From NCBI RefSeq assembly GCF_023078375.1, contig NZ_CP095554.1:620001-684000 (forward strand): a stretch of 64,000 bases of DNA, in the 5' to 3' direction. Within the stretch, counting starts at the first letter, position 1; each line of letters opens with the position of its first letter. Below, piece after piece: positions 2,470 through 56,218 of this stretch. The position numbers and the translations under genes were made by a program. Under the pieces are notes generated by a model. That model was not told the DNA's origin. It was given only the letters and a program-made list of their open reading frames with translations, and searched no databases. Origin of the DNA: Roseomonas gilardii subsp. gilardii. Lineage in GTDB: Bacteria > Pseudomonadota > Alphaproteobacteria > Acetobacterales > Acetobacteraceae.

Positions 2470-2571
2470 GAGCCCCCAGACCAATCCGTGTCCCCACCCC
2501 GAGGAACGCAAAGCCCGTGCCACTCCGCCCATTCCCGGAAGCATGGGTCAGGCGGGTTTTCAGGCGGCCAG

Positions 2572-2882
2572 CCCCGGGTGGAGGCTCCGCCTCCCCCGGT
2601 CCCCCTCCGCTCAGGGAGGCAAGGGCCTCCCCGAGACCCCGCCTCTCATTGGCACCGGTGGCAAGGTCAGCCTATGGCCTGATCCCTGGGAGCAGATGGA
2701 TCGGCGGGGCTCCCGAAGAAGACGATCACCGTGCCTGCGCCGGCAGTCGCCGGAGAGTATCGCTCTCCGGCGCGATGCGGTGTCGGCGAGCGACAACGAA
2801 CCGGGTCCGGCCCGCAGGGTCCTGGCGGATGGGGGGCCAAAGGGGAAAACATGGGGGAAGGCGGAGCCTTGCCCCCGGAGCG
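2572..2882 (+). repeat. Multi-hairpin intergenic element, mosaic copy
   Basis: This gene-free block between the divergent ABC ATPase and copA is a copy of the dispersed hairpin element. The right part matches the long family (hairpin CGCCGGAGAG/CTCTCCGGCG at 2748-2772, then GGTCCTGGCGGATGGGG and a GGCGGAGCCTTGCC hairpin). The left part (about 2580-2650) instead carries the CTCCGCTCAGGGAGG and CGAGACCCCGCC modules of the second family seen at 23.1 and 37.4 kb. It is therefore a mosaic. No open reading frame with normal codon use lies inside; frames predicted here are low-complexity translations of the repeat. Confidence 0.8.
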
Positions 2883-5811: not shown

Positions 5812-5850
5812 CCGGGGGGACACTCCACGGGGCGCGGCGGCCGTGGTCCA

Positions 5851-6169
5851 CCCCCGGGGGACAAGGCTCCGCCTTTTCCCCCGGAACCCCCTTATCCGCC
5901 AGGAACCTGAGGTTCCTGGACCTCCCACCCGCTGGCTCCTGCTGAGGCAGATCACGCCGGAGAGCGATGCTCTCCGGCGACGGCCGGTACCACCAGCGCG
6001 GAGAAGGATTCTTTCTTTTTCGGAGCCCACTGATCCACCTGCGCTCAGGGATCGGACAGCAAACTGGCGGCCACCACCAGCGCCCACGAAAGCCCGGGGT
6101 CCGGGGACCGGCTTCGGTCCCCGGCGGTGAGGGGGTCCGGGGCGAGAGGCAGCGCCTCTCCCCCGGGGC
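5851..6169 (-). repeat. Multi-hairpin intergenic element, long copy
   Basis: Reverse-oriented copy of the element found at 13.9, 28.8 and 42.1 kb, filling most of the gap between copZ and dapF. Recognisable parts are the AAGGCTCCGCCTT hairpin at the 5851 end, CCAGGAACC-TGA-GGTTCCTGG near 5909, the core hairpin CGCCGGAGAG/CTCTCCGGCG at 5955-5979, an AGGATTCTTTCTTTTTCGG pyrimidine-rich stretch, and GGGGACCGGCTTCGGTCCCC near 6105. No gene is seen from 5812 to 6288 apart from this element. Confidence 0.85.
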
Positions 6170-6288
6170 AGCCACGAAGCGGAACGCCCAGAGCGGGGAC
6201 AGGGGAGCTCCCGGTGCCGAAGACAGCAGGCACCAGAGCGTGAAGCCCCAGGGTTCCGCCGCGTGGTGCCTGCGCCTATATCGCTGCC

Positions 6289-11000: not shown

Positions 11001-12619
11001 GCGCCGCCGGAATCCCCCATGCCCAGGCGCTGGAAGCCTGGCGCGCCGCCTCCCCCGCCCCGGCCAGGGCGCTGGACCTGCCGGTGCCGGAACTGCTGTC
11101 CGCCTATCATCCGGACCGCCAGCCGGGCGCCATGGTGACGCTGCGGGTCGGCGCCAGTGCCGGCCAGGAATGCCCGGCCATCCTGGCGGACCTGCTGCAG
11201 GCGGATTCGCTGCTGGAGGATGTGGACATCGCCGGCGCCCCGATGCTGGACGCGGACGTGCTGGTGATCGGCGGCGGCGGCGCGGGCTGCGTCGCGGCGC
11301 TGACCGCCGCGCGGGCCGGGGCGCGGGTGCTGCTCGCCACCAAGCTGCGCATCGGCGACAGCAACACGGTGATGGCGGAGGGCGGCATCCAGGCCGCGGT
11401 CGGCGCCGAGGACAGCCTGCAACGGCATTTCGAGGACACGCTGCGCGCCGGCCACTTCGCCGCCGACAAGGAACTGGTGGCGGCGCTGGTCTCCGGCGGG
11501 CCGGCGGCGATCCGCTGGCTGATCCAGGAGGGGATGAGCTTCGACCTCACCGAGGGCAGCCAGCGCATGGGCGGCACGCTGCTGCGCAAGAAGCCCGGCG
11601 GCGCCACCGCGGCCCGGCTGCTCTCCTACCGCGACTTCACCGGGCTGGAGCTGATGCGGGCGCTGCGCGAGGCGACGCTGCTGCAACCGGGGATCACCAT
11701 CCTCGACCGCCATCCGGCGCTGGAACTGCTGAGCGACGACCGCGGCCGCTGCGCCGGGGCGGTGCTGCACGACTTCGCGCATGGCCGCCCGGTGCTGGCC
11801 CGGGCCGGGGCGGTGGTGCTGGCCACCGGCGGCTCCGGGCGGCTGCACCTCGCGGGCTTCCCGACCTCGAACCACTACGGCGCCACGGCGGACGGGCTGG
11901 TGCTGGCCTATCGCCTCGGCGCCCCGTTGCGGGAGGTGGACAGCTTCCAGTACCACCCGACCGGCATCGCTTGGCCTCCGCATATGGAGGGTGCCCTGGT
12001 CAGCGAGGCGGCACGCTCCTCCGGCGCCTTCCTGGTGAACGGGAAGGGCGAGCGCTTCGTGGACGAGCTGCAGCCGCGCGACGTCGTGGCCTCCGCCATC
12101 CTGCGCGAGATCGCCGAGGGCCGGGGCGTGGAACGCGATGGCAAGGTGGGGATCTTCCTCGACACGCCGACGCTGGAGAAGGGCAAGCCCGGCATCCTGG
12201 AGAAGAGCCTCGTCACCCTGCGCCATCTCGCCCATCGCGGCGGCTTCGATCCGGCCGAGGAACCCTTCCTGATCCGCCCGACGCTGCACTACCAGAATGG
12301 CGGCGTGGTGATCGACCCGGAAGGCCACACCGCCATCCCCGGCCTGCTCTGCGCGGGGGAGGTGACGGGCGGGCTGCACGGACGCAACCGCATGATGGGC
12401 AATGCCCTGCTGGAGCTGGTGGTCTTCGGCCGCCATGCCGGTGCCGGGGCCGCGGCCGAGGCGCGTGTGGAACGGCCGCGCAATGTGGGCCTGACGCATC
12501 TCGCCGACTGGCGCCGGGCCCTGGTGACGCAGGGCCTGCCCCTCACCCGCAAGGCGCCGATGATCTTTCCGCCCTACGGCAACTTCGATGCCGTCACCGA
12601 CCGGGGGATGGCCGCATGA
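10997..12619 (+). CDS. FAD-dependent flavoprotein, SdhA/FrdA/NadB superfamily
   Basis: Flavoprotein of 540 residues. The FAD Rossmann site is LVIGGGGAGCVAALTAARAG near residue 92, after an unusual 85-residue N-terminal leader. Active-site landmarks of fumarate reductases are kept: QYHPTG, the arginine of PRDVVASAI, the histidine of TLHYQNGG and HGRNRMMGNAL. The GEGG segment that follows the TE motif in succinate dehydrogenase/fumarate reductase is replaced (SEAARSSGAFLVN). The substrate may thus differ from fumarate/succinate. ATGA overlaps join it to the iron-sulfur gene before and the NuoF-like gene after. A cytosolic NADH:dicarboxylate (or enoate) reductase is my inference. Confidence 0.82.
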   Translation: MSAAGIPHAQALEAWRAASPAPARALDLPVPELLSAYHPDRQPGAMVTLRVGASAGQECPAILADLLQADSLLEDVDIAGAPMLDADVLVIGGGGAGCVAALTAARAGARVLLATKLRIGDSNTVMAEGGIQAAVGAEDSLQRHFEDTLRAGHFAADKELVAALVSGGPAAIRWLIQEGMSFDLTEGSQRMGGTLLRKKPGGATAARLLSYRDFTGLELMRALREATLLQPGITILDRHPALELLSDDRGRCAGAVLHDFAHGRPVLARAGAVVLATGGSGRLHLAGFPTSNHYGATADGLVLAYRLGAPLREVDSFQYHPTGIAWPPHMEGALVSEAARSSGAFLVNGKGERFVDELQPRDVVASAILREIAEGRGVERDGKVGIFLDTPTLEKGKPGILEKSLVTLRHLAHRGGFDPAEEPFLIRPTLHYQNGGVVIDPEGHTAIPGLLCAGEVTGGLHGRNRMMGNALLELVVFGRHAGAGAAAEARVERPRNVGLTHLADWRRALVTQGLPLTRKAPMIFPPYGNFDAVTDRGMAA

Positions 12620-13866
12620 CCGCCGTGCTCACCGCCGAGGCGATCCGGGTCGGCCCGGACCTCGCCGCCTGGCTCAGGGCCGGGGGCGGCCAGGGGCTGG
12701 AACGCGCCCTCGCCGATCCCGGCGGCATCATTCCCGCGCTGGAGGCGTCCGGGCTGCGCGGACTGGGCGGTGCCGGCTTCCCCACCCACCGCAAATGGGC
12801 CGCCGTGGCGGCGCAGCCGCCTTTCCCCGGGGGCGGCGGCAAGTGGATCATCTGCAACGGCAATGAGGACGAGCCCGGCACCTTCAAGGACCGCTTTCTG
12901 CTCTCCCGCACGCCGCATCAGGTGATCGAGGGCGCGCTGATCGGCGCCCTGGCGGTGAAGGCGAACCGGATCGCCCTCTACGTCAACCCGCGCGAGACCG
13001 CCTCCGTGAAGGCGCTGCGCGCCGCCGCCGATGCCTGGCGCGCGCATCCGCTGCTGGCCCGCGTCGCGGAATCCGTCGGCACGCCGCTGCAGCTCCGTGT
13101 CTGCGAAAGCTCCGGCCTCTATGTCGGCGGGGAGGAGACGGCGGCGGTGGCCAGCGTCATGGGCGGCTTCCCCTTCCCGTCGCTGAAGCCGCCCTTCCCG
13201 GCGGAAAAGGGCGTGGATGGCGCGCCGACGCTGCTGAACAATGTCGAGACCTTCGCCCATGTTCCCCACATCCTCCGCCATGGCGCGGCATGGTACCGGG
13301 GGCTGGGCATCGGAGAGGCGGTGGGCACCAAGCTCTACTCGCTGTCCGGCGACGTGCTGCGGCCGGGCCTGCACGAGTTGCCGATGGGCACCTCGCTGCG
13401 GGAGCTGGTCTTCCGCTGTGGCGGCGGCATGCTGGCCGGCAAGGCCTTCAAGGCGGTCTTCACCGGCGGCCCGTCCAACACGCTGCTGACCGACCGTGAC
13501 CTCGACGTCGCACTGGATTTCGACAGCCTGCGCGCCCGCGGCTCGCGCCTTGGCACCGGCGCCATGATCGTGGTGGGCGAAGGCACCAGCATCCTGCGCA
13601 AGACGGCGGAATACGTCGCCTTCTTCGCGGCGAGCTCCTGCGGCCAGTGTCCCTCCTGCAAGATCGGCACGCACCAGGTCTCGCGCATCCTCGAACGCAT
13701 CGAGGCCGGGGCCGGCCGCCCCACCGATCTCGCGGCGCTGGAGAACCTGACACGGCTCCTGCCCGGCTCCGGCCGCTGCGGGCTGGTGGACGGCGCAGCC
13801 ACGGTGCTGGCCAGCTCCCTCGCCACCTTCCGGAACGAGTACGAACGGGCCCTCGGCCTGGACTGA
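12616..13866 (+). CDS. NuoF-like NADH dehydrogenase (FMN, 4Fe-4S) subunit
   Basis: 416-residue NADH-oxidising module. The FMN/NADH site motifs GLRGLGGAGFPTHRKW and GNEDEPGTFKDR, the VGGEETA segment and LLNNVETFAHVP all match complex I subunit F, and the C-terminus holds the 4Fe-4S site SSCGQCPSC with a distal cysteine in GRCGLV. The NADEGEPGT of NuoF reads NGNEDEPGT here. No nuoE or other complex I genes are adjacent, so it is not part of respiratory complex I. Together with the two upstream genes (all joined by four-base overlaps) it should take electrons from NADH and pass them to the iron-sulfur protein and flavoprotein. Confidence 0.87.
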   Translation: MTAVLTAEAIRVGPDLAAWLRAGGGQGLERALADPGGIIPALEASGLRGLGGAGFPTHRKWAAVAAQPPFPGGGGKWIICNGNEDEPGTFKDRFLLSRTPHQVIEGALIGALAVKANRIALYVNPRETASVKALRAAADAWRAHPLLARVAESVGTPLQLRVCESSGLYVGGEETAAVASVMGGFPFPSLKPPFPAEKGVDGAPTLLNNVETFAHVPHILRHGAAWYRGLGIGEAVGTKLYSLSGDVLRPGLHELPMGTSLRELVFRCGGGMLAGKAFKAVFTGGPSNTLLTDRDLDVALDFDSLRARGSRLGTGAMIVVGEGTSILRKTAEYVAFFAASSCGQCPSCKIGTHQVSRILERIEAGAGRPTDLAALENLTRLLPGSGRCGLVDGAATVLASSLATFRNEYERALGLD

Positions 13867-13894
13867 ACCGCCCTTGCGTCGCGCTTCGTGTCCA

Positions 13895-14216
13895 GCCCCG
13901 GGGGAGAGGCGCTGCCTCTCCCGCCGGACCCCCTCTCCGCCGGGGACCGAAGCCGGTCCCCAGACCCCGGGCTTTCGTGGGCGTCGGTGGCTGCCGTCAG
14001 TCTGCTGGCTGATCCCCGGGCGCAGGTGGATCCGCGGGTCTCCCGAAAAGAAGAAAAACACCCTCTCTGCACTGGTGGCACCGGCAGTCGCCGGAGAGCC
14101 ATGCTCTCCGGCGTGATCTGGCCGCAGCAGGAGCCAACGAATGGGGTCCAGGGCGCGCAGCGTCCTGGCGGATGGGGGTTCCGGGGGGGAAAGGCAGAGC
14201 CTTGCCCCCCGGGGGA
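13895..14216 (+). repeat. Multi-hairpin intergenic element, long copy
   Basis: Best-formed copy of the dispersed element, between convergent genes. In order: GAGAGGCGCTGCCTCTC hairpin at the left end, GGGGACCG-AAG-CCGGTCCCC at about 13945, a conserved GGACCCCGGGCTTTCG-type stretch, a GATCCCCGGGCGCAGGTGGA stretch, an A-rich GAAAAGAAGAAAAACACC run, the core hairpin CGCCGGAGAG-N5-CTCTCCGGCG at 14089-14113, CCAGGGCG-N5-CGTCCTGG near 14148, and a closing AAGGCAGAGCCTT hairpin. The region 13867-14235 holds no gene. Confidence 0.87.
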
Positions 14217-14235
14217 CAGGGCAACGCCGGACCAA

Positions 14236-14844
14236 TCAGGCCCGCAGGTTCGTCGGCTCGTGCAGGATCAGGCGGCCGGGGGGCCGGCCGTGCAGGGCCC
14301 GCAGCAGTTGCGTGGCGAGGCAGGCATCCTCCAGCGCCCCGTGCTGCTCGCTTTCGCGGGCGAGGCCCAGCGCCGCCGAGGCGGCGTCCAGCCCGGCGCG
14401 TTCGCCAGGGCGGTAGAGGCGCCAGGCACGCAGGGTGCAGTATTCCCCCCGCCAGGGCCGGGCGAGGCCCAGCCGGTCGAATTCCCCGCCCAGCATGCGG
14501 CGGTCGAAGGCCAGGTTGTGCGCACAGGCCACGGCGCCCTCGAAGAAGGCGGCGACCTCTCCGGCATGGGCTTCGAAGGATGGCTGGCGGGCCAGGAAAC
14601 GGTCGGTCAGCCCATGGACCCGCACCGCGCCCGGATGGCAGCGCCGCCCCGGCGCGAAGACGAGGTGCAGCGTGGCCACCACGTCCAGCGCAGGGTCCAG
14701 CCGGACCGCGCCGAGGGAAACGACCCGGTCGCCGATGGTGCAGCCGGTGGTTTCGGTATCGAAGACCACCACGTCGCTCTGGAGGGAAAGCACAGGGTGC
14801 GCCAGGGGAGATAAGGTGGCGGGTTTCGTGGCGAAGTCCATCAT
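14236..14844 (-). CDS. DEDDh 3'-5' exonuclease, DNA polymerase III epsilon-like
   Basis: Stand-alone exonuclease of 202 residues of the DnaQ/RNase T fold. The three acidic motifs are intact: FDTETTG (Asp 29, Glu 31), AHNLAFDRRM and H-GALED (His plus Asp), giving a DEDDh active site. The start MMDFATKP (ATG at 14842-14844) has an AGGA ribosome site; a further ATG three codons upstream is possible. The C-terminus lacks the tau/alpha-binding tail of true DnaQ, so a repair or RNA-trimming role is as likely as proofreading. It diverges from endonuclease V, suggesting a small DNA-repair neighbourhood. Confidence 0.88.
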   Translation of the reverse strand: MMDFATKPATLSPLAHPVLSLQSDVVVFDTETTGCTIGDRVVSLGAVRLDPALDVVATLHLVFAPGRRCHPGAVRVHGLTDRFLARQPSFEAHAGEVAAFFEGAVACAHNLAFDRRMLGGEFDRLGLARPWRGEYCTLRAWRLYRPGERAGLDAASAALGLARESEQHGALEDACLATQLLRALHGRPPGRLILHEPTNLRA

Positions 14845-14964
14845 CCCCGCCATCCTAGGACAGCCCGGCGCGTTCCGGTATGGCCGGTGGCCCGTTCCGC
14901 CCGGCCCAACCGGAGGGTGTCCCACCTGTTTCACATGGAGCAAGGCGAGAGGAACGGCACGGGG

Positions 14965-18415: not shown

Positions 18416-18958
18416 ATGGCCCAGCGCCATGTGACGATCCTTGCTCTTGCCCTGGCGGCGGGGATCGCGCCGCTCGCCGTTCAGGCCCAGACCACCCTGA
18501 CGCCCAGTCAGGCCACGCCGCGCGACAACAGCAGCTCCGGTTCTACGGCCCGCGAGTTGCGCCCGCTGGCCAGCCAGCCGGACAGCCAGGCCACGCCGGG
18601 CGCGACCCCGCGCGACAACAGCCGCGTCGGTTCCGAAGCACGCGGGCTGCGCCCGCTGACGAGTCAGCCGAACAGCCAGGCCACGCCGGGCGCAACCCCG
18701 CGCGACACGAGCAGCGTCGGCTCCGAGGCCCGTGGCGGCCCCGGCACCGGCCCGTTTCACCGCCGCCCGCGTGCTGCCGCTCCGGCCAAGGCGGCCCCTG
18801 CCAAGGCAGCTCCGGCGGCGCCCGCCGCCACCGGCTCGGGCGTCGTGATCGGCGGTCCGGACGCGGCGAAGAGCACCAGCAACATCAACGGCGCTTTCCT
18901 GGGCGGCGGCGGTGCCTTCGAGCGGATGCCGGACGGCAGCCTGCGTCAGGTCCAGTAA
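18416..18958 (+). CDS. Secreted repeat-containing hypothetical protein
   Basis: Protein of 180 residues with a signal peptide (hydrophobic ILALALAAGIAPLAVQAQ) and, after cleavage, two to three tandem copies of a roughly 28-residue unit built on ATPGATPRDNSRVGSEARG followed by LRPL.SQP. A KAAPAKAAPAAPAA linker and a glycine-rich C-terminus (GAFLGGGGAFERMPDG) follow. The start has GGAG at good spacing. No known domain; the repeats are polar and probably disordered. Periplasmic or surface location is inferred. A strong hairpin terminator follows at 19006. Confidence 0.7.
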   Translation: MAQRHVTILALALAAGIAPLAVQAQTTLTPSQATPRDNSSSGSTARELRPLASQPDSQATPGATPRDNSRVGSEARGLRPLTSQPNSQATPGATPRDTSSVGSEARGGPGTGPFHRRPRAAAPAKAAPAKAAPAAPAATGSGVVIGGPDAAKSTSNINGAFLGGGGAFERMPDGSLRQVQ

Positions 18959-23109: not shown

Positions 23110-23140
23110 CCTCCGGGTCTTTGTGCTCTGGCCAGCGAAC

Positions 23141-23366
23141 CGGGAGGCTCTGCTTCCCGGACCCTTTGCTGAGGGAGGGGCCGCTCAGGGGCATAGTATG
23201 CCCCCGAGACCCCGCCATGAGCGCTCCGCGAGGAGGGGGTTATTCCGCCGTCGCGCCAATGGCGAGCGCTGCCCCAATCCCCCTCCTCGCGGAGCGCTCA
23301 TAGGGTTCCAAGGGACCCACGTCCCTTGGCGGGAGGGGTCCGGGGAGGGCGGAGCCCTTCCCGGAG
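23141..23366 (+). repeat. Second-family hairpin element with 23-bp inverted repeat
   Basis: Gene-free element between the MerR regulator and the thiolase. Its centre is a perfect 23-bp inverted repeat (23217-23239 with 23279-23301, arms starting ATGAGCGCTCCGCGAGG) with a 39-base loop. Flanking hairpins: CGGGAGGC/GCTTCCCG near 23150, GGGGCATA-G-TATGCCCC near 23190, CCAAGGGA/TCCCTTGG near 23308 and GGGAGGGC/GCCC.TTCCC near 23345. The same layout recurs at 37391 with compensatory base differences. Confidence 0.87.
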
Positions 23367-26886: not shown

Positions 26887-26968
26887 GAACCAGCGAATGG
26901 GAGGTCCAGGAACCCTGGGTTCCTGGCGGATGGGGACCGGGGAAGGCGGCGCCTTCCCCGGTCCCCGG
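26887..26968 (+). repeat. Partial hairpin element (right-end modules)
   Basis: Short copy comprising only the right end of the long element: AACCAGCGAATGGGAGGTCC, the hairpin CCAGGAACC-CT-GGGTTCCTGG and a closing GGGGAAGGC/GCCTTCCCC hairpin. It occupies the 137-bp gap between the fadB-type gene and the acyl-CoA dehydrogenase inside an operon. No gene is present. Confidence 0.78.
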
Positions 26969-28776: not shown

Positions 28777-28781
28777 GGTCC

Positions 28782-29091
28782 GGCCCCGGAAGAGGCTCCG
28801 CCTCTCCCGGACCCACTCCGCCGGGGACCGAAGCCGGTCCCCGGACCCCGGGCTTTCGTTGGTTCCGGTGGCGACCGGCGTTCTACGCTCCGATCCCTGG
28901 GCGCAGGTGGACCAGCGGGGCACCCGAAGAAAAACAAACACCGTGTCCGCTGCGGTGGCACCGGCAGTCGCCGGAGAGCATCGCCCTCCGGCGTGATCCG
29001 ACCACAGCGAGCACCAACGAGTGGGGTCCAGGGCGCGCAGCGTCCTGGCGGATAGGGGGTCCGGGGGAAAGGCAGCGCCTTGCCCCCGGAG
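28782..29091 (+). repeat. Multi-hairpin intergenic element, long copy
   Basis: Copy of the dispersed element between the acyl-CoA dehydrogenase and the amidase. It holds GAGGCTCCGCCTC, GGGGACCG-AAG-CCGGTCCCC (about 28823), CCCCGGGCTTTCGTTGG, the A-rich GAAGAAAAACAAACACCG run, the core hairpin at 28969-28993 (one mismatch in the right arm, CGCCCTCCGGCG), CCAGGGCG/CGTCCTGG and the closing AAGGCAGCGCCTT hairpin. Nothing else is seen between 28777 and 29182. Confidence 0.86.
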
Positions 29092-29182
29092 GGACAGCAC
29101 GACGCCGGAGCACCCCCTCGACAAGCCCCTGCCCCACCCGGAGACTGCCGCGCGCAGACCACCGCAGAGGAGTCCCGGGGGC

Positions 29183-37351: not shown

Positions 37352-37390
37352 GCTTCCCCTGGGGTTGCTCGTCGAGGATCGGGCGTGGCG

Positions 37391-37593
37391 CTCCGGGAGG
37401 CTCTGCCTCCCGGACCCTCCGCTCAGGGGGATAGTATCCCCCCGAGACCCCGCCATGAGCGCTCCGCGAGGGGCTGACCGCCGTTCCGCCAAATGGCGAC
37501 CGGCATCCTGTTCCCCTCCTCGCGGAGCGCTCACAGGGTTCCCAGGGACTAACGTCCCTGGGCGGGGTGTCCAGAGGGGCAGAGCCCCTCTGG
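37391..37593 (+). repeat. Second-family hairpin element with long inverted repeat
   Basis: Between divergent mnmE and the DUF255 gene. Central inverted repeat TGAGCGCTCCGCGAGG (37456-37471) with CCTCGCGGAGCGCTCA (37518-37533). Flanking hairpins CGGGAGGC-TCT-GCCTCCCG, GGGGGATA-G-TATCCCCC, CCCAGGGA/TCCCTGGG and AGAGGGGC-AGA-GCCCCTCT occur in the same order as in the copy at 23141, with paired base changes in the stems. The 306-bp gap holds no gene. Confidence 0.87.
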
Positions 37594-41958: not shown

Positions 41959-42080
41959 GCGGCGGATTCCTTCACGCCGCATGTGGTCCCGTCCGCCGCC
42001 TGGTGCAACATGGTTTCGCAACATGGCTTCTAGGCGGATCGGCCCGGCCACATGCACGGCATGGGTTGCTCTCCGTGGCC

Positions 42081-42410
42081 GCCCCCGAGGGCAAGGCGCT
42101 GCCTCGCCCCCAGCCCCCCACACCGCCCATGACCATGATGGGGGACCGAAGCCGGTCCCCGGACCCCGGGCTTTCGTTGGCGCCGGTGGGTGCCGTCGGT
42201 CTGTGAGCTGTCCCTGGGAGCAGGTGGTTCAGCGGGGCACCCGAAAGGAAAAATGCACCCTCTTCGCGCTGGTGGCGCCCGCAGCCGCCGGAGAGCATGG
42301 CTCTCCGGCGCGATCCGATGTCAGCGAGAGCCAACGAATGGGGTCCAGGGCGCGCAGCGTCCTGGCGGATGGGGGGTCCGGGGGGAAAGGCGGAGCCTTG
42401 CCCCCCGGGG
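42081..42410 (+). repeat. Multi-hairpin intergenic element, long copy
   Basis: Copy filling most of 41959-42462. It shows GGGCAAGGCGCTGCCTCGCCC, GGGGACCG-AAG-CCGGTCCCC (about 42143), CCCCGGGCTTTCGTTGG, GTCCCTGGGAGCAGGTGG, an AAAGGAAAAATGCACC run, the core hairpin CGCCGGAGAG/CTCTCCGGCG at 42286-42310, CCAGGGCG-N5-CGTCCTGG and the closing AAGGCGGAGCCTT hairpin. No gene in this stretch. Confidence 0.86.
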
Positions 42411-42462
42411 ACAGAGCAACGCCGGACGTAAAGCCACCACCGGGCGGGGCCGCCATTCCGGA

Positions 42463-50765: not shown

Positions 50766-50858
50766 GGCCCCGCTGGGGGCAAGGCGCTGCCTTGCCCTCG
50801 AGACCCCCACCCCGCCGGGGACCGTAGCCGGTCCCCGGGACTTTCGCGGGTGCTGGTG
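50766..50858 (+). repeat. Partial hairpin element (left-end modules)
   Basis: Only the left part of the long element: GGGCAAGGCGCTGCCTTGCCC and GGGGACCG-TAG-CCGGTCCCC, then GGGACTTTCGCGGG, after which similarity stops. It lies between the convergent pheT and Bug genes; no gene is seen from 50730 to 50900. Confidence 0.75.
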
Positions 50859-50900
50859 ACTGTCCTTGTTCTGCGGCCCGCGCCGCCTGACCGCCCGATC

Positions 50901-55889: not shown

Positions 55890-56019
55890 AAACCACCCGC
55901 GCCCAGGGATCGGCTGGCAGACTGAGGGCCACCACCAGCGTCAGCGAAAGCCCGGGGTCCGGGAACCGGCTTCGGTTCCTGGCGGGGAGGGTGTGGGAGA
56001 GGCTCCGCTTCTCCCGCAG
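55890..56019 (-). repeat. Partial hairpin element (left-end modules), reverse
   Basis: Reverse-oriented left half of the long element: GAGAAGCGGAGCCTCTC, the hairpin GGAACCG-AAG-CCGGTTCC, CCCCGGGCTTTCG, and GATCCCTGGGCGCGGGTGG. The stem reads GGAACCG/CGGTTCC where other copies have GGGACCG/CGGTCCC, a compensated change. Confidence 0.8.
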
Positions 56020-56218
56020 GGCGGCCATCGGCGCGGCGCCGGCAGAAGCCGCTGCATGTTGCGGGCAGCCAGGGCGATTTTCCGCATAGGCTTCAGGCAA
56101 TGGCGTCTTCAAAATAGGCAATTAGCCCAGAGTGAAGGCAATCCCTTCGCAGTTGCACAGTAGAATTCCGGAAGATCGCAGATTCCTGTTGAAGCCTGGA
56201 CCAGATTGCGCGAGGGTT

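Follow-up and report, generated by a model that had tools for sequence, protein, structure and literature searches.

In the Roseomonas genome analysed here (G000; 4.62 Mb in two contigs), the convergent stop codons of the genes at 12616-13866 (plus strand) and 14236-14853 (minus strand) are separated by a gap that is filled by a full-length copy of a dispersed element (13870..14237, plus strand), as placed by a profile match of 372 bits and by gene calls. These positions refer to the window, the whole 64,000-nucleotide stretch of DNA that was analysed, which corresponds to 620001-684000 of the 4.20-Mb contig C1. Read along the plus strand, and defined from sequence and pair counts, hairpin A (13902..13922) is GGGAGAGGC-gct-GCCTCTCCC, and GGACCCCC follows a few bases later. 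Hairpin B (13942..13961), GGGGACCG-aagc-CGGTCCCC, is followed in the sequence by AGACCCC. The central purine tract GAAAAGAAGAAAAA (14045..14058), visible in both sequence and alignment, precedes the core hairpin CGCCGGAGAGC-cat-GCTCTCCGGCG (14089..14113), which was traced through its 73 genome copies. Further to the right lie hairpin B' (14148..14168), CCAGGGCGC-gca-GCGTCCTGG, after which ACCCC follows on the minus strand, and hairpin A' (14184..14210), by sequence and pair counts a mirror of A with one mismatch. The right end GGCAACGCC (14220..14228) mirrors the GGCGTTGC-type left end in the end alignment.

Copies were located with a profile built from 30 of them, which found seven in the window, five of them long and two partial. 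The first-pass annotation of this DNA had described a block of about 310-330 bp in five intergenic gaps, and the profile recovered all five, with a true extent that is slightly wider. Besides the focal copy, the long copies lie at 2557..2880 (plus strand), in a divergent gap and, according to the orthologous-gap comparison, in common with the related genome G004; at 5840..6192 (minus strand); at 28779..29110 (plus strand), in a tandem gap and also in common with G004, where it is in two pieces; and at 42058..42433 (plus strand), adjoining a rearrangement breakpoint relative to G004. The partial copies (50773..50879, plus strand; 55891..56027, minus strand) form the opposite edges of a 5-kb segment that is inverted in G004. 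At 26887..26931 (plus strand) there is a B'-side fragment, in a place where G004 has a longer copy. The window also contains two 90-bp tandem repeats (18512-18691) that are 82% alike.

Architecture and paired changes

Allowing one mismatch at most, a search of G000 for the core hairpin gave 73 matches, against one for the reversed-pattern control, and the copy number is about 75. With the focal copy as blastn query, the best 40 of 228 candidates were copies of about 265-335 bp with 78-100% identity. The element is an imperfect inverted repeat of approximately 350 bp with five hairpins. On the left, the consensus of 60 aligned copies comprises GGCGTnGCGCTTCGTGGC, hairpin A, GGACCCCC, CTCCGCC, hairpin B and GGACCCCGGGCTTTCGTTGGC; the rest consists of the purine-tract centre, the core hairpin, B' and A' in mirror order and a mirror ACGCC end. 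This alignment bears out the conserved hairpin order and core that had been noticed in the window. The end regions match one another inverted at 79-90% identity, and GGCGTTGCGCT-like ends (at least 7 of 11 bases, a lenient threshold) were present on both sides of 38 of the 63 anchored copies. The longest open runs had medians of 80-108 codons in each of the six frames; since all six are alike in this GC-rich DNA, no coding frame is favoured. This agrees with the earlier observation that no copy carries a protein, and a protein-coding element was rejected.

As RNA, most of the plus strand folds into a single long, imperfect stem that bears side hairpins (z -4.77), and the minus strand folded as DNA reached z -4.14. 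The strong RNA fold would suit a discrete, trans-acting structured RNA as a candidate. However, Rfam gave 0 matches at gathering score across the window and 0 even at E<=1 for 13850-14260, and the near strand symmetry and the dozens of copies squeezed in between two stop codons likewise argue against such an RNA, which we consider very improbable.

In the 60 aligned copies, paired columns were more conserved than unpaired ones (0.946 versus 0.844). Pair-keeping double changes occurred in three pairs of B' (37 cells; shuffle mean 13.4), three pairs of A' (31 cells; shuffle mean 11.1) and one pair of A (19 cells; shuffle mean 5.0), and the core hairpin showed double changes in one pair (2 cells). 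Hairpin B is almost invariant across these copies and has no double changes because it hardly varies; in the diverged relative G013 both of its sides are altered, and the stem GGGGACCG/CGGTCCCC reads GGGGCC.../...GGCCCC. Most of 12 aligned G013 copies have G-C in place of one A-T pair of the core. The RNAalifold covariation term was only -2.55 out of -89.35 kcal/mol. The paired stem changes reported by the first-pass annotation are real, but they are concentrated mainly in B', A and A'; they also occur between lineages. As the copies are paralogues with 11 discrete B' variants in common, paired change alone is weak evidence of selection, and the between-lineage comparison with G013 is stronger evidence than that among within-genome paralogues. 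Selection for structure, as RNA or cruciform, had been proposed from these changes. What stands is that structure is kept through paired change, also between lineages; what does not is the step to selection, because hairpin-templated DNA correction or a swap of whole hairpin variants would mimic its signal and, the signal being identical, paired change alone is no proof.

Potentially, mutation mechanics and not selection keep the hairpins, through intrastrand template switching, which makes palindromes perfect, and through recombination between copies, which swaps variants. The occurrence of B' as 11 discrete variants among 60 copies and the presence of copies at inversion and translocation edges are both consistent with this mechanism, but it leaves gene context, tails and spacing unexplained. 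We regard it as rather unlikely, and it can coexist with the other readings.

Gene context and chromosomal position

To place the copies relative to genes, 72 G000 copies of at least 100 bits were considered, of which 70 were classified and two lay at locus edges; the gene calls came from a codon model trained on annotated Roseomonas CDS and are approximate. Forty copies were convergent, 29 tandem (15 in the same and 14 in the opposite orientation) and one divergent, so that 69 of the 70 have a convergent or unidirectional 3'-end intergenic location. Background gaps (20 bp or longer, counted over 264 kb on the origin side, element gaps included) numbered 22 convergent, 101 tandem and 29 divergent, which gives a convergent excess (Fisher, p 1.7e-10) and a divergent deficit (p 9.8e-5). 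Where a profile end faces a gene 3' end, the median distance to the stop codon is 11 bp for left ends (n = 55) and 10 bp for right ends (n = 54); where it faces a 5' end, the distances are 87 and 114 bp (n = 15 and 16). It had been stated that copies lie between convergent, divergent and tandem genes alike; this is true of the five copies in the window (one convergent, three tandem, one divergent) but not genome-wide. A strict terminator scan was positive at 3/88 convergent ends with the element versus 11/162 without it (p 0.39), and terminator replacement was rejected on this lack of a difference. The Roseomonas hairpins have no U-tracts, and the GC stem followed by a U-tract that characterises intrinsic terminators is absent from the element.

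As origin marker we used a putative parS-like site, the sole one found in G000 (at 736,758, with two mismatches); G003 and G013 have one such site each. In G000, the circular mean of 76 positions is 41 kb from this site (KS p 1.5e-13 versus uniform), and four of the 76 fall in the outer 40% of the chromosome. For G003, at least 65 positions are centred 15 kb from its parS-like site (p 8.9e-11), with 1/65 among the matches listed in the outer 40%, degraded copies excluded. The bias is also present in G013 and is less sharp than in G000 and G003 (39 chromosomal places of 40 scored, p 4.6e-4; 7/39 in the outer 40%; centre displaced by 486 kb). On the terminus side of G000, eleven stretches (220 kb, within 2.35-3.67 Mb) contained no profile match, versus nine matches, two of them weak, in ten origin-side stretches (200 kb). 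Convergent gaps were occupied in 13/40 cases on the origin side (404 kb) versus 0/21 on the terminus side (p 0.0024). Convergent gaps as such exist on both sides.

A second dispersed intergenic repeat of about 205 bp, with a similar hairpin style, occurs in the window at 23130-23340 and about 37388-37566. This family has 14 places each in G000 and G003 and has the same origin bias (p 2.4e-4 and 2.7e-4), and therefore the bias is not private to the five-hairpin element. A DNA topology or nucleoid element, i.e. a putative gyrase or architectural-protein site that would relieve supercoils between converging origin-domain genes, might account for the convergent preference together with the origin-centred distribution, and E. 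coli REPs are gyrase targets according to PMC3733652. However, a second family of similar style has the same bias, which need not belong to this sequence itself, and we judge the topology reading improbable.

Gain, loss and spread among genomes

Gain, loss and REARRANGEMENT were followed by setting 204 kb of G000 against G003 (400 kb) and G004 (254 kb). A mappable orthologous gap was available for 10 of 17 G000 copies, and in 15 comparisons the gap contained the element ten times and had no profile match five times. Three of the five element-free gaps are short (138, 10 and 73 bp), and the others, of 558 and 481 bp, are long and contain other sequence; for the copy at 5840..6192, the orthologous G004 gap is 138 bp, has no profile match and retains a small hairpin. 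Further state changes, both unpolarised, are a G003 gap of 416 bp versus 45 bp in G000 and a G004 gap of 375 bp versus 37 bp in G003. One mapping (G004 135249), based on 72% identity, is probably to a paralogue. Target duplications gave no clear signal versus shuffled flanks in 38 copies (the best of many offsets reached 2.6 sd). Thus, of the two signs of mobility that had been suggested, presence or absence at orthologous loci was found and supports a mobile palindrome, whereas the duplications expected at empty sites were not found in these 38 copies. Flanks are too diverged for exact junctions. The idea that the copies are decayed remnants of one ancient duplicated segment was rejected, because they are single units in unrelated gaps and some orthologous gaps are element-free.

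The two halves of the focal junction lie 73 kb apart in G003, and each bears the element. Together with the partial copies that edge the inverted segment of the window, this split junction is as expected of recombination between copies. An open frame with the IS110-family transposase domains PF01548 and PF02371 is located at L213 2412-4886 (about 706.4-708.9 kb in G000); it lies in an enlarged gap of 1582 bp, where it apparently interrupts an element copy near hairpin B'. PF01797 (Y1-type/RAYT transposase) had 0 matches in G000, the same search being positive in 5/14 control genomes, and RAYT mobilisation was rejected on these grounds. Viral carriage was also rejected, with 0 exact core matches in viral contigs.

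Searching with the focal copy gave any match in 13/60 genomes, G000 included, and long matches only in G000, G003, G004 and, diverged, G013, whose longest matches were 72% and 68% identical. Within the genus, long copies were present in 2 of 14 other genomes, and a third had a version with approximately 70% identity. The 286-kb plasmid pOT10-1 carries one copy of the diverged family (L090 4001-4295). A core pattern with 27 fixed bases was found only in Roseomonas mucosa ATCC BAA-692 (34 stretches) in a named genome collection from which the own or very near genomes are possibly left out. A covariance model of the core, B' and A' matched 15/120 family genomes at E<=1e-4, namely G000, two of the same genus and 12 of other genera with weak matches. 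At loci from other genera, the plan is wholly or partly present in 6/8 (L249, L252-L256); the stems there are unrelated in sequence yet self-complementary. The fullest arrays (e.g. L258) run from a stop codon through two ACCC-tailed hairpins, a centre and two GGGT-headed hairpins to the opposing stop. In a set of 25 loci, 21 were classified (12 convergent, 8 tandem, 1 divergent), and the full array is not in every locus. In L249, from another genus, the array centre (around 1501-1612) is a terminator of the canonical intrinsic type, perfect and two-way, and has A- and T-tracts.

Beside perfect intergenic hairpins, ACCC is the most frequent tetramer in G003 (27/196 hairpins), in G004 (18/118) and in two other-genus locus sets (6/27; 16/33 with the seed hairpin excluded). 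On the G000 origin side it is fourth (13/194), the commonest being CGGA, which begins CGGACCC in many copies; on the terminus side it is beside 0/70 hairpins (p 0.023), and in 12 G013 loci beside 3/32. Over seven locus sets, ACCC tails point toward the gap centre in 75/83 cases; the sets are not independent, because G000, G003 and G004 have orthologous copies in common. Allowing up to one mismatch, 11 of 22 chosen genomes contain the motif GGGCTCTGCCC-N-GGACCC: three other genera have 74, 69 and 65 occurrences and eight further genomes 1-11. It is missing from the other eleven, among which are G000, G013 and four class outgroups. Class-wide, GGGGCTCTGCCCCNGACCC was found in 1/385 genomes and 0 times in G000, a pattern too narrow for such a survey.

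These data bear on the possibility of a purely selfish, non-autonomous element (MITE- or REPIN-like) without host function, whose 3'-end location and origin bias would reflect tolerated or targeted insertions and whose hairpins would be retained because a mobilising enzyme needs them. Presence and absence at orthologous gaps, the inverted-repeat end regions and the patchy spread among the 60 genomes, with long matches in four, agree with such an element, and the first of these also favours the non-autonomous mobile palindrome of the first-pass annotation. However, neither a target duplication nor a PF01797 match in G000 was found, and a single transposon family would not be expected to share its inward grammar with arrays of unrelated stems in other genera. 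We consider it unlikely, although it ranks close behind the gene-end reading set out below.

A possible gene-end array and its known counterparts

The copies sit behind stop codons and keep their hairpins even where the sequence differs, and most are found on the origin side. Our preferred explanation, to which we give a probability of roughly 45%, is a BIME-like mobile palindrome array that acts as a putative two-way gene-end structure. The element would be a non-coding dispersed array in which inward, ACCC-tailed hairpins are set head-on and so form the imperfect inverted repeat. A transcript that passes either stop codon would fold the first hairpins it meets, and the folded 3'-end structure might limit read-through into the opposing gene and shield the mRNA from 3' exonucleases; as the array is symmetric, we propose that it serves both strands. 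Copies may be spread by a putative mobilising activity that acts in trans, and may be retained at 3' ends because they do no harm or are of use there. In favour of the gene-end reading are the 3'-end and convergent context, the presence and absence of copies and the structure that is kept, also relative to G013; the same grammar at gene ends of other genera, the inward tails, the predicted two-way terminator of L249 and the recurrence of GGGCTCTGCCC-N-GGACCC in three other genera but in none of the four class outgroups point in the same direction. Against it speak the hairpins without U-tracts and the terminator scan that shows no difference, and a 3'-end location is also expected of neutral repeats after purging of harmful insertions. 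Neither a mobilising enzyme (PF01797 search) nor a target duplication was found, ACCC is only the fourth commonest tetramer in G000, and neither G000 nor G013 contains GGGCTCTGCCC-N-GGACCC. Transcript ending also leaves the origin bias unexplained. A broader proposal, possible though more doubtful than the gene-end reading itself, is a third, 'ACCC-tagged' palindrome superfamily across many genera of Acetobacteraceae, with head-on arrays that span opposing stops, stems that turn over and a fixed grammar; in Roseomonas it would be an origin-domain, bidirectional gene-end and topology element at chromosome scale.

If the gene-end reading is true, convergent pairs with versus without the same element in close relatives are a natural experiment that would expose effects on read-through, mRNA stability and supercoiling. 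The interplay of repeats and chromosome domains could be approached through the origin-sided distribution, which the second repeat family shares and which offers a testable clue. Open-licence PMC literature on palindromic or extragenic repeats of Roseomonas and Acetobacteraceae contained no description of the element that we could find.

Among known repeats, those of the ERIC/RUP type resemble the element as intergenic inverted repeats with dozens of copies; they differ from it in bacterial group and in sequence. With MITEs the element has in common that it is non-coding, dispersed and has inverted-repeat ends; unlike for MITEs, no target duplication was seen. The TMECO triplex motifs of E. 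coli are reported to be intergenic and to cluster near the origin in K-12 (PMC4666352), a bias not seen by the authors in other strains or bacteria; they resemble the element as an origin-clustered intergenic repeat and differ in motif and in their 23 copies. REPINs, inverted palindromes that form a mobile unit (PMC3116915), are alike in this respect, whereas the Roseomonas element has five hairpins over approximately 350 bp, and its genome no PF01797 match. The GTAG and CGTC superfamilies of REP/BIME repeats are short, tetranucleotide-tailed palindromes, intergenic and often in opposed orientation, located between unidirectional and convergent ORFs near coding ends; CGTC repeats are reported missing from Acetobacteraceae (PMC3733652). 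Unlike these, the Roseomonas element has ACCC-type tails (beside perfect hairpins of the seven locus sets, GTAG occurred once, CGTC 8 times and ACCC 83 times), is a fixed five-hairpin unit and has no RAYT found in its genome. The element thus departs in tested defining features from GTAG/CGTC REPs, REPINs and MITEs, and it has the location of the REP superfamilies without their GTAG/CGTC tails. If the gene-end reading is true, it is an undescribed gene-end repeat class in a family from which the known CGTC class is reported missing. With its tailed, opposed, intergenic palindromes close to coding ends, as described for REP/BIME repeats, the element looks like an undescribed relative of these repeats and may mark gene ends on both strands.
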